This document shows positions 1 to 56,793 of a DNA stretch of 64,000 nucleotides, piece after piece. The notes below the pieces were generated by a model. The model was not told the origin of the DNA, searched no databases, and worked only from the letters and a program-made list of their open reading frames with translations. The stretch spans positions 1 through 64,000 of the forward strand of contig JAIYAC010000008.1 in the NCBI GenBank assembly GCA_027489245.1. The letters run 5' to 3'. This DNA comes from Neisseriaceae bacterium (GTDB lineage Bacteria; Pseudomonadota; Gammaproteobacteria; Burkholderiales; Chromobacteriaceae). Each line of letters opens with the position of its first letter. Within the stretch, counting starts at the first letter, position 1. Both the position numbers and the translations under genes were made by a program.

Positions 1-36
1 AAAGGGTCGGGCGTTCGAATCGCTCCGGGTGCGCCA
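1..36 (+). tRNA. 3' end of a tRNA (probably tRNA-Arg), truncated by window start
   Basis: T-arm GGGCG-TTCGAAT-CGCTC followed by acceptor strand CGGGTGC-G-CCA; amino-acid identity inferred from acceptor stem only. Confidence 0.6.
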
Positions 37-42
37 CAATCT

Positions 43-41076: not shown

Positions 41077-41299
41077 CAGGGCCTTTGTTTGCCGCCTGGG
41101 CCTGGCGTGCGGCTTCGCGCAGCTGCCAGGCGGCCAGCTTCTGGCGGTGTTCACTGACCGCAGAATCGTAAATATCCCAGACGCAGGGCTGGCAGCCGCT
41201 ATGGCAGCAGGCGTAGTCGTCCGGTGCTTCGGGGGGCGCTGGCTGCGGGTCGAAGTCGTCGTCGAACGCTTCGGGGCCGATGGCTTGCAGGGTACTCAC
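41063..41299 (-). CDS. Small oxidoreductase-like domain protein (Cys-rich)
   Basis: EAPDDYACCHSGCQPCVWDIYDSAVSEHRQKLAAW; GTG start proposed. Confidence 0.75.
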   Translation of the reverse strand: MSTLQAIGPEAFDDDFDPQPAPPEAPDDYACCHSGCQPCVWDIYDSAVSEHRQKLAAWQLREAARQAQAANKGPDEQH

Positions 41300-41514
41300 G
41301 CTGCGGCTACCACCTTGATGGTAAAGCCGTCGCCGGACACCAGCTGGCCTACGCGGATCTTGTTGGTCTTGCGCAGCTCTACCTGGCCGTCTACCAGCAC
41401 ATTGCCCTCGGCAATAAAGTGTTTGGCCATGCCGCCGGTGTCGCACACACCGCAGGTTTTCAGCAGGTCGCACAGCGGGATGTAGTCGCCGCTCAGTTCG
41501 TAGATTTCGTTCAT
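41296..41514 (-). CDS. S4-domain RNA-binding protein (YbcJ-like)
   Basis: YIPLCDLLKTCGVCDTGGMAKHFIAEGNVLVDGQVELRKTNKIRVGQLVSG. Confidence 0.88.
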   Translation of the reverse strand: MNEIYELSGDYIPLCDLLKTCGVCDTGGMAKHFIAEGNVLVDGQVELRKTNKIRVGQLVSGDGFTIKVVAAA

Positions 41515-41557
41515 GGTTCTGTTCACAGGGGTTGTACACACCGCCTTTTGACAGGGC

Positions 41558-41734
41558 TGTGTGCCGGCTGTGGACAATTGCCACAAGCCTTTGTTTGTTC
41601 TTGCCATTTTCTGGCTGACTATTTTTTCAGCAGCCACTTTTTACTTTCCACACCGCAGCGGGACAGGCTTGTGCACCGGCTGTGGACAAAGCGCCTAACT
41701 GGCTGAGCCATAAGGCGAAAGCCACGCCTGCCTA
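41558..41734 (+). repeat. Modular TGTG / TGTGGAMAA / A6-or-T6 repeat, units 1 and 5
   Basis: TGTGTGCCGGC-TGTGGACAA...ATTTTTT (41569, A at 41621); TGTGCACCGGC-TGTGGACAA...TAAAAAAC (41681, A at 41734). Confidence 0.6.
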
Positions 41735-42292
41735 AAAAACAGGCAGCTGCGGCAGTACGCGCCGCAGCGCCGCCCACGCGGCGGCCTGGCGCTGCGCCCC
41801 CTGCCCTGCCACCAGCTGATACGGCACGCCGGCTGCCTGCAACGCTTCGCGGTACAGGCCAAACAGCCAGTCGCGGCTATCGGGGTGGCTGCGTAGCGGG
41901 TCCGGCTGCCATGGCAGGTCGGGTGCGGTGAGCAGCGTCTGCGTGTAGCTGTGCGGCTGGTTGATGGCCAGCAGTGCCGGCTCGGCCTGGCCAAAGGCGA
42001 CCTCGGCCCAGATACGGCAGGTCAGCACCGTGGTATCACACAACAATACCGTGGCACCGGCGTCGCAGGCGGCCTGCTCGGCGGCCAGCTGCCCGCGGGC
42101 AATGGCCAGGATATCGGCAGCAGCGGGCTGGTAGGGCCGATGGGCATAGTAGGCGCGGGCGTACTCTGCCACCGCTACCGCCGCCACACCGTGCTGCTGC
42201 AGCCGGCTGGCCAGCTGCGCGGCCAACGTGCTTTTACCGCAGGATTCGGGGCCGACAATGGCAATGCGTACAGGGGAGCAAACGTCAGACAT
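41732..42292 (-). CDS. NadR/Ttd14-like AAA domain ATPase
   Basis: VRIAIVGPESCGKSTLAAQLASRLQQHGVAAVAVAEYARAYYA P-loop. Confidence 0.85.
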   Translation of the reverse strand: MSDVCSPVRIAIVGPESCGKSTLAAQLASRLQQHGVAAVAVAEYARAYYAHRPYQPAAADILAIARGQLAAEQAACDAGATVLLCDTTVLTCRIWAEVAFGQAEPALLAINQPHSYTQTLLTAPDLPWQPDPLRSHPDSRDWLFGLYREALQAAGVPYQLVAGQGAQRQAAAWAALRRVLPQLPVF

Positions 42293-42384
42293 ATGCCGCC
42301 TATTATACGCGGCAACCGCCCTGCCCTGTTACCCGCCTGCAGCACAGGCCCGCACGCCTGGCCTGGCTATCCACAGTATGCGTA

Positions 42385-42435
42385 AAAACGCCCACATCCT
42401 GTGGGAGCAAGGGTGTGGGCGGGCTGTGGAAAAGC
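42385..42435 (+). repeat. 51-bp hairpin-containing direct repeat, copy 1
   Basis: AAAACGCCCACATCCTGTGGGAGCAAGGGTGTGGGCGGGCTGTGGAAAAGC. Confidence 0.95.
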
Positions 42436-42773
42436 ATCACAAGTTCATGTTTTATCGAAACAAAACACCAGCAGCCTATTTTTTAAGCAAGTCCTGCGTA
42501 GCATGCCACACCTTGGCCATTCCCACGCTGCCAGACACACCGTGGTAACAGATCAAGCCAAAACGCCCACACCCTGTGGGAGCAAGGGTGTGGGCGGGCT
42601 GTGGAAAAGCCAGGCAAGTCCTTGAAACAGCAGGCACAAAGCGCGGGTGACTATTTTTTAATCACCCACCGTGCTTTATGCACGCCAGCGCTGGAAAGCG
42701 CTGTGGGGTGGTTGTGGACAAATGCGGTAAACCCATGACGCACAATGCTTTTCCGGCACTGCACATTTTTTAA
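42414..42773 (+). repeat. Modular TGTG / TGTGGAMAA / T6 repeat, units 2, 3 and 4
   Basis: TGTGGAMAA at 42425, 42600 and 42713, with ATTTTTT at 42478, 42653 and 42765. Confidence 0.65.
42560..42610 (+). repeat. 51-bp hairpin-containing direct repeat, copy 2
   Basis: Same as copy 1 with one T-to-C difference; stem CGCCCACACCC/GGGTGTGGGCG. Confidence 0.95.
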
Positions 42774-43768
42774 TCAGCCAGCGAGACTTCTCCGCGCAGA
42801 TTAGCGGCCCACGCCTGGCGCAAAGCTTCTGCGCCAAGGCCCTGCGACAGCAGGTAAAGCAGCTTGGCGTTGGCCGCTTCCGGCGTCATGTCGCCACCGG
42901 CTAGCGCGCCGGCCTGCGCCAGCGGCTGGCTGGCGGCGTAGGCACCCACTTCTACGGCGCCTTTGCCGCACTGGGTCAGATTGACCACCAGACAGCCGCG
43001 CGCGCTGGCCACGCGCACGCCGTCCAGCAGCGCGGCGTCGTCTGGCGTGTTGCCGTTGCCGTAGCTGTGCAGGATGGAAGCCTGCGGGGTATCTGCGGCC
43101 AACCAGCGGCCAAAGTCGCCCGCCATGCTGCCTGGCAGCAAAAAGCCGCTGCGGATGCTGGCCGGCTGCGGCAGCACGGCGCGGAAGCTGCCACTGCCAC
43201 GGCGCCACTGTGCGGTGTCCCAGCCAGCGTGAATGCCAAAGCGGGCCAGCGGCGCGGCGTTGGGGCTATCAAAGCCGGCAAAGCTGGCGGCGTCTACCTT
43301 GCGCGCACGGCAGCCGCGCAGCAGCAGGCGGTTGAAGGCGATGGCCACCTCGTGCAGCGCAGGCTGGCAGGCAGCCTCGATGGCGTCGGCCAGGTTGCCC
43401 CAGCCATCGCTGCGCGGGTGGCCCAGCGGCAGCTGCGAGCCGGTCACGATCACCGGCTTGGCCAGGTTTTCCAGCGCAAAGGCCAGCACGCTGGCGGTGT
43501 AGGCCATGGTGTCGGTGCCGTGGATCACCACGAAACCGTCGTAACGGTCGTACGCCGCCGCCAGGTCGGCTACCAGCTTTTGCCAGTCGGCCACGGTAAT
43601 GGCCGACGAGTCGATCAGCTGCGGGTATTCCACCACATCCCAGCTAACGCCGTCGCGTGCCAGGCGCTGCAGCTGGGCGGGCAGGTAGCCCGGCACGGGT
43701 GCCAGGCCAGCGGGGGTGGGGGCCATGCCGATGGTGCCACCGGTGTAAAGAATCAACAGTTTGCTCAC
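42770..43768 (-). CDS. L-asparaginase (type I)
   Basis: LLILYTGGTIGMAPTPAGL; GFVVIHGTDTMAYTASVLAFALENLAKPVIVTGSQLPL. Confidence 0.93.
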   Translation of the reverse strand: MSKLLILYTGGTIGMAPTPAGLAPVPGYLPAQLQRLARDGVSWDVVEYPQLIDSSAITVADWQKLVADLAAAYDRYDGFVVIHGTDTMAYTASVLAFALENLAKPVIVTGSQLPLGHPRSDGWGNLADAIEAACQPALHEVAIAFNRLLLRGCRARKVDAASFAGFDSPNAAPLARFGIHAGWDTAQWRRGSGSFRAVLPQPASIRSGFLLPGSMAGDFGRWLAADTPQASILHSYGNGNTPDDAALLDGVRVASARGCLVVNLTQCGKGAVEVGAYAASQPLAQAGALAGGDMTPEAANAKLLYLLSQGLGAEALRQAWAANLRGEVSLAD

Positions 43769-55844: not shown

Positions 55845-56793
55845 TATCAGTGTGCGCCGCCTGTATCAGGACAACCAGCACAAGCTGAGCCTGAGCTGGG
55901 TGGCCAGCCGTGCCGGCTCTGACAACCTGATTTCCAACGAAGAACAGCGGCCAACCCAGGCGCTGGTAGGCCACCTGAACTTTATCCACCCCAACCGGGT
56001 GCAGGTACTGGGTCTGGCCGAGGTGGAATACCTGAACAAGCTGGAGCAAGCCGCTGCGCGTACCGCGCTGGACCAGCTGTTTCACAAGACCATGGCCGTG
56101 GTGATCGTGGCCAATGGCCAGCCCGTGCCCAAGCTGCTGCACGACTACTGCCAGACGCACAATGTGCCGCTGATGAGCACCCCGCTGGAAAGCCCCTACC
56201 TGATGGACGTGCTGCGCATTTACCTGGCGCGCGCCCTGGCTGTATCCACGGTGATGCACGGCGTGTTTCTGGATGTGCTGGAAATCGGCGTGCTGATCAT
56301 GGGCGACTCGGCCATGGGTAAAAGCGAGCTGGCACTGGAGCTGATCTCGCGTGGCCATGGCCTGGTAGCCGATGATGCGGTAGAGCTATACCGTATCGGC
56401 CCGGAAACCCTGGAAGGGCGCTGCCCGCCCCTGCTACGCGACTTTCTGGAAGTACGCGGCCTGGGCATCCTGAATATCCGTACCATCTTTGGCGAAACGG
56501 CTGTGCGCCCCAAAAAGGTCCTGAAGCTCATCATCCATCTGATGAAAGCCAACGACCAGGCCATGCAGGCGCTGGACCGGCTGAATATCCAGTCCGAGAC
56601 ACAAGACATACTCGGCGTCACCGTGCGCAAGGTCGTGCTACCTGTAGCCGCTGGCCGCAACCTGGCCGTACTGGTAGAAGCTGCCGTGCGTAACTACATC
56701 CTACAGCTACGCGGCATAGATAGCACCCGCGAGTTCATCGACCGCCATACCAACCTGCTACGGGACCAGGAACATGCAGCTGATTCTGATTAG
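55837..56793 (+). CDS. hprK: HPr kinase/phosphorylase
   Basis: [57 protein letters not shown]. Confidence 0.96.

Follow-up and report, generated by a model that had tools for sequence, protein, structure and literature searches.

Introduction

The anatomy of DARS2 is known in detail from E. coli and its close relatives. DARS1 and DARS2 have equally spaced DnaA boxes, with box I opposed to boxes II and III (PMC5742627), and the head-to-head boxes I and II are characteristic of DARS and essential (PMC10380432). DARS2 needs, in addition, IHF and Fis bound at fixed positions, and its IBS1-2 lie 3 bp apart (PMC4245941); we read the same 3-bp spacing in the E. coli DARS2 sequence, as published, where IBS1-2 stand between the core and the Fis sites. 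At datA, near oriC, the minimal DnaA boxes 2, 3 and 7 are arranged around one IHF site and stimulate ATP hydrolysis. Accounts of how far DARS extends differ in reach: a 2017 review describes conservation to E. coli-proximal beta- or gamma-proteobacterial species (PMC5742627), in the primary paper Fis and the DARS2 core are confined to E. coli-related gamma species (PMC4245941), and another review mentions DARS-like sequences in "many proteobacterial species" (PMC10380432).

Here we describe a locus in a genome of the Chromobacteriaceae that, judged from its sequence and conservation, is probably a tandem array of compact, multi-copy DARS2-like DnaA-reactivation modules. Our literature search, of partial coverage, turned up no account of such loci in Vogesella or the Chromobacteriaceae, nor of multi-module arrays.

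Five ordered units flank a NadR-like gene

The window is the whole stretch of DNA that was analysed, 64,000 nucleotides of contig JAIYAC010000008.1. Within it, the motif TGTGGAMAA occurs on the + strand at 41569, 41681, 42425, 42600 and 42713, as the earlier note had reported, and nowhere else; shuffling predicted 0.74 copies, and five or more were reached in 0 of 100 shuffles of the window. A genome-wide search of the 3,512,356-bp assembly with the 20-mer TGTGN7TGTGGAMAA returned five copies, all within this 1.2-kb locus. The reversed-pattern control gave 0 matches, as did 60 windows simulated with a second-order Markov model of the window.

The features of the locus, in window coordinates, are as follows.

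41296..41514, - strand: S4-domain protein (YbcJ/YaaA-like; PF13275, 1e-25), a syntenic neighbour
41532..41633, + strand: module 1, with boxes I-IV, IHF and Fis (R1 match 65.9 bits); box I 41532-41540, II 41546-41554, III 41558-41566, IV 41569-41577
41584..41596, + strand: IHF-like site of module 1, CAAGCCTTTGTTT, at the fixed offset +26; last bases weak against YAANNNNYTGAT
41617..41631, no strand: Fis-like site of module 1, GACTATTTTTTCAGC; departs from the consensus at one R position
41644..41746, + strand: module 2 (R1 match 59.1 bits); box I 41644-41652, II 41658-41666, III 41670-41678, IV 41681-41689
41696..41708, + strand: IHF-like site of module 2, TAACTGGCTGAGC
41730..41744, no strand: predicted Fis site of module 2, GCCTAAAAAACAGGC; lies partly within the 3' end of the NadR-like gene, whose stop is at 41732
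41732..42292, - strand: NadR-like nucleoside kinase (AAA_28; PF13521, 8e-29; TIGR01526 kinase half), between modules 2 and 3
42391..42490, + strand: module 3 (R1 match 55.1 bits); box III 42414-42422, IV 42425-42433; box I (42388-42396, ACGCCCACA) and box II degenerate
42440..42452, + strand: IHF-like site of module 3, CAAGTTCATGTTT
42474..42488, no strand: predicted Fis site of module 3, GCCTATTTTTTAAGC
42566..42664, + strand: module 4 (R1 match 59.7 bits); box III 42589-42597, IV 42600-42608; box I (42563-42571, ACGCCCACA) and box II degenerate
42615..42627, + strand: predicted IHF site of module 4, CAAGTCCTTGAAA
42649..42663, no strand: predicted Fis site of module 4, GACTATTTTTTAATC
42676..42777, + strand: module 5 (R1 match 65.0 bits); box I 42676-42684 (TTATGCACG), II 42690-42698, III 42702-42710, IV 42713-42721
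42728..42740, + strand: IHF-like site of module 5, TAAACCCATGACG
42761..42775, no strand: predicted Fis site of module 5, GCACATTTTTTAATC; lies partly within the 3' end of the asparaginase gene, whose stop is at 42770
42770..43768, - strand: type I L-asparaginase (PF00710, 3e-56), a syntenic neighbour

The A/T tracts on which the earlier note had remarked are present (TATTTTTT at 41620, 42477 and 42652, a variant at 42765, and TAAAAAAC at 41734). So are its two opposite-strand boxes: TTGTACACA at 41532 is box I of unit 1, and CTATCCACA at 42367-42375 lies upstream of module 3, outside the unit frame. The unit, put at ~72 bp in that note, proved to be ~102 bp long; each is opened by an oppositely oriented box 26 bp before the first TGTG, and the period is 112-113 bp where units stand in tandem, two features that had been missed. 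Neighbouring modules at the family loci are most often this distance apart. Of the interpretations offered before, that of an ordered DnaA-box locus for replication control is supported. The iteron-like and dispersed-repeat alternatives are not: the units are not short iterons, and the genome-wide search found no dispersed exact copies of what is one syntenic locus conserved across the family, with one array per genome in relatives.

A REP or other mobile repeat was rejected for the same lack of dispersed exact copies and for the synteny of the locus, yet modules 3 and 4 hold a REP-like inverted repeat of 12 bp, CGCCCACACCCT/AGGGTGTGGGCG, over boxes I-III (window 42388-42425 and 42563-42600); it is perfect in module 4 and has one mismatch in module 3. 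Because these two modules are 89% identical over 65 bp, a recent duplication is suggested. At window 55848-55897 the module model has a further match, weak and partial (13.5 bits).

The same genome carries a sixth, isolated module on the - strand (G000:C12:315279-315379, that is, L244:6280-6380; 37 bits, E 7e-9) between convergent genes for a GGDEF/EAL protein and, by our own reading, an AstE-like protein. It has four DnaA-like boxes and a Fis-like site, lacks the IHF consensus and overlaps a terminator-like hairpin. This module could be a DARS1-like second locus.

The module has a fixed architecture

To define the module, 99 distinct units from the 36 family genomes with a match in the array were aligned on the first TGTG and combined in a weighted logo. 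The ~102-bp unit reads box I, 5 bp, box II, 3 bp, box III, 2 bp, box IV, 6 bp and an IHF consensus, followed by a 15-bp Fis consensus. Box I (TTTTYCACA, -26..-18) is oriented opposite to box II (NSKGGACAG, -12..-4), box III (TGTGNRCSG, 0..8) and box IV (TGTGGACAA, 11..19). The IHF element YAANNNNYTGAT at 26..37 is the reverse complement of the IHF consensus WATCARNNNNTTR, and the Fis element GCYTATTTTTTAGGC at 59/60 corresponds to the Fis consensus GNNYRNNNNNYRNNC. Between the two lies a T-rich patch at 48-52, at roughly the place where some IHF sites, such as the lambda H' site, have their A-tract. Two elements of the earlier note thus receive an identity that it had missed: its CAAG-like patch is the IHF consensus at a fixed offset, and its A/T tract is the core at the centre of the palindromic Fis consensus. 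The spacers between the sites are divergent.

The search pattern fixed box IV and four bases of box III, and left the remaining logo positions free; the 157 units that were found in 36 loci also show the I-5-II-3-III-2-IV-6-IHF geometry with Fis at +59/60. Among 77 non-redundant units, which were collected by matrix and not by the pattern, 72 carry the 15-mer Fis consensus at offset 59/60 (1.3% expected from shuffling), and 46 carry the strict IHF core at +26, which appears at no other offset. An alignment of 40 sequences shows no variation at the outer G and C of the Fis site.

Two further candidates were discarded. A structured RNA found no Rfam match here, and a terminator hairpin with its T-tract gave way to the Fis consensus, a palindrome that is T- or A-rich in either sense.

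DnaA could simply be titrated by the locus, as has been proposed for B. subtilis clusters outside oriC, with IHF and Fis in an architectural role. The many boxes (~20 predicted in the window) and the dominance of near-consensus box IV would suit such a sink, which would need boxes but not an opposed box, an IHF site and a Fis site in fixed order at invariant offsets. That several conserved boxes differ greatly from the consensus also speaks against titration. We consider a sink unlikely.

Arrays are conserved across the family

All of the 41 family genomes searched carry modules (4-7 each at E <= 1e-4), and the family arrays hold 3-7 modules per locus, for example 5 in Vogesella, 7 in Aquitalea, 3 in Pseudogulbenkiania ferrooxidans and 6 in Chromobacterium subtsugae. 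Based on the presence of comparable arrays in 41/41 relatives, the family probably times the copying of its chromosome with a multi-copy version of the DARS2 switch.

As indicated by tblastn, the order S4 gene, modules, NadR-like gene, modules is kept in 33 of the 36 family array loci and in the four named genomes. The asparaginase gene lies beyond the modules in most loci, and in a few it falls outside the stretch or has no match. Close relatives of the NadR-like gene occur in V. mureinivorans (96%) and V. aquatica (94%), which makes Vogesella or a very close neighbour the most likely source of the window. At three family loci (L026, L028 and L228), tblastn gave no NadR match while 3-4 modules remain; conversely, no modules stand beside the NadR homologues of Deefgea, Chitinibacter and Chitinilyticum. 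Because of these two observations, the NadR-like gene is probably an incidental syntenic neighbour with no functional link to the modules, and a NadR regulon was rejected.

A cis-regulatory role for the NadR-like, S4 or asparaginase genes, in which DnaA or another factor would control transcription, would fit the position of the modules, which in most family genomes occupy the intergenic stretches next to these genes. The independent occurrence of modules and NadR homologues argues against this, predicted Fis sites overlap the 3' ends of genes, and the same module has matches in other families of the order, where the loci are unrelated; we regard such a role as very improbable.

In the wider order, which we take to be Burkholderiales in GTDB, 124 of 250 genomes have module matches at E <= 0.01. 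Among the matches listed, about 36 genomes from outside the family fall below 1e-6, many with several modules clustered. Arrays of other families (L249, L250, L252, L256, L258, L261 and L263) keep the 5/3/2/6 spacing and differ in the distance between modules, which is ~193 bp between three of the modules of L250. Class- and phylum-wide searches outside the order gave weak matches, the best at 3.0e-6 among ~290 class genomes, and these were treated as background. Roughly a tenth to a sixth of the genomes outside the order reach E 0.01, so single matches near this value are not evidence.

The arrays lie in mid-replichore

In six relatives, the array is separated from dnaA by 17-39% of the chromosome (array-dnaA distance/chromosome in Mb: 0.75/4.36, 0.93/4.15, 1.01/3.72 on the largest contig, 0.93/3.27, 1.04/3.63 and 1.83/4.75). 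Cumulative GC skew, calculated from 20-kb samples of three complete relatives (G001, G031 and G036), has its minimum at or near dnaA and its maximum far off, with the array in between. In the order we located dnaA in a further ten complete genomes; in the nine with listed module coordinates, 15-52% of the chromosome separates the module matches from it. For comparison, the coordinates of E. coli place DARS2 at ~21% and DARS1 at ~33% of the chromosome from oriC.

E. coli oriC carries DnaA, IHF and Fis sites together, and the same co-occurrence here could point to a replication origin or secondary origin. At 17-39% of the chromosome (0.75-1.83 Mb) from dnaA, however, the arrays are not oriC; in the three complete relatives they do not coincide with the origin-side minimum of cumulative GC skew, and E. 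coli oriC gave no score with the core matrix described below. An origin is the least credible of the readings that we weighed.

The modules are oriented against the replication fork in 6/6 complete relatives (G001, G004, G020, G025, G031 and G036), a pattern from which G250, of another family, departs.

Proposed mechanism

For protein binding, nucleotide exchange and cell-cycle timing at the DARS2-like modules, we infer a course modelled on E. coli DARS2. ADP-DnaA would assemble on the head-to-head boxes I and II, aided by box III and the strong box IV. IHF would bend the DNA just past box IV, and with Fis ~20 bp further on, the flank would be folded onto the DnaA complex. Release of ADP would be promoted in this way, and apo-DnaA would take up ATP again, ready for a new round of initiation. 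With several modules at one locus the output would be multiplied, and it would be coupled to the copy number of a locus in mid-replichore.

Partner genes are present. A Fis homologue with 45-50% identity was found in 9/9 genomes tested, and this genome has three IHF/HU-family genes; DnaA and a second Bac_DnaA protein of ~230 aa, the size of Hda, are also present. As a counterpoint to the DARS2-like reading, box II resembles the DnaA consensus weakly, boxes I and II are degenerate in modules 3 and 4, and only 46 of the 77 non-redundant units have the strict IHF consensus.

A more elaborate scheme, which we offer as a doubtful speculation, would make each module a self-contained switch: ADP-DnaA on the opposed boxes I and II would drive exchange, abundant ATP-DnaA would polymerise head-to-tail on boxes II-III-IV by the IHF site and shut the module off, the initiation clock would have its gain set by the number of modules (3-7), and replication timing in betaproteobacteria would be tuned as modules are added or lost.

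If the DARS2-like reading is true, IHF/Fis-dependent reactivation of DnaA, in a compact multi-copy form, would extend to a large bacterial group. In about 100 natural variants the sites are strictly kept while the spacers vary, which reveals the positions and distances that matter; the small size of the module makes it handy for reconstitution.

Comparison with DARS1, DARS2 and other DnaA-box loci

The three-box core of E. coli reads TTATCCACT-5-TGTGGATAA-3-TGTGTATTA in DARS1 and TTATTCACC-5-TGTGGATAG-3-TGTGAAGAA in DARS2. A core matrix of 35 bp (positions -26..8), trained on the Chromobacteriaceae family only, was scanned over 308 kb of MG1655 that included oriC, datA, DARS1 and DARS2. DARS2 ranked first (18.7) and DARS1 second (13.1); because the next score, 12.7, belongs to an unrelated site, the match to DARS2 counts as strong and that to DARS1 as moderate. 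When the spacers were left free, 5/3 bp was the best of 169 combinations at both loci. With a stricter, earlier matrix that included box IV, the rank was 1 for DARS1 in an 8-kb region and 3 for DARS2 in a 10-kb region. The full-length module model found no match in the 308 kb of E. coli, since box IV is missing from E. coli and the IHF and Fis sites here follow the core at a much shorter distance; the comparison with DARS thus rests on the 35-bp core.

The same scan bears on a datA-like function, in which DnaA boxes flanking an IHF site would stimulate hydrolysis of ATP-DnaA after initiation (DDAH). Each IHF site here lies between box IV and box I of the next module, as the datA IHF site lies between DnaA boxes, and boxes II-IV, head-to-tail at 11-12 bp, would suit ATP-DnaA oligomers. 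Against this, an opposed box I within a three-box core is the signature of DARS (PMC10380432, PMC5742627), and the core matrix did not place datA in its top ranks. As described, datA also has no required Fis site, whereas the Fis consensus occurs in 72/77 units here, and it lies ~10% of the chromosome from oriC, compared with 17-39% for the arrays. Hydrolysis at the locus and simple titration both have three features against them, namely the chromosomal position, the Fis site and the opposed orientation of box I, and we hold a datA-like function to be unlikely. What the arrays have in common with datA is DnaA boxes and an IHF site outside oriC; datA differs in its box arrangement, in lacking a required Fis site, in lying nearer the origin and in not being recovered by the core matrix.

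The DnaA-box clusters of B. subtilis likewise lie away from oriC and affect initiation, but B. subtilis is without IHF and DARS loci (PMC13220808).

DARS1 (bioD-uvrB) has the same three-box core and spacing as the modules. It is reported to need neither IHF nor Fis, whereas both predicted sites are conserved here.

DARS2 (rppH-mutH region) is closest to the DARS2-like modules. Both DARS loci and the modules share the three-box core, the opposed box I and the 5- and 3-bp spacers. With DARS2 the modules further share a predicted IHF site beyond the core (consensus at +26, strict core in 46/77), a predicted Fis site beyond IHF (consensus at +59/60 in 72/77), the same-side order core-IHF-Fis, and a non-coding, mid-replichore position away from oriC, as judged here from the distance to dnaA in six genomes and from GC skew in three. 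DARS2 differs in having one core in 455 bp, overlapping Fis sites and no box IV, and, by our own reading of its sequence, IHF follows box III after ~58 bp there and after 17 bp here. The arrays consist instead of compact ~102-bp modules with an extra strong box IV, 3-7 of them per locus, at a period of 112-113 bp where tandem. Because the core-IHF-Fis distances differ from those of E. coli DARS2, we call the modules a DARS2-like variant and not DARS2 itself.
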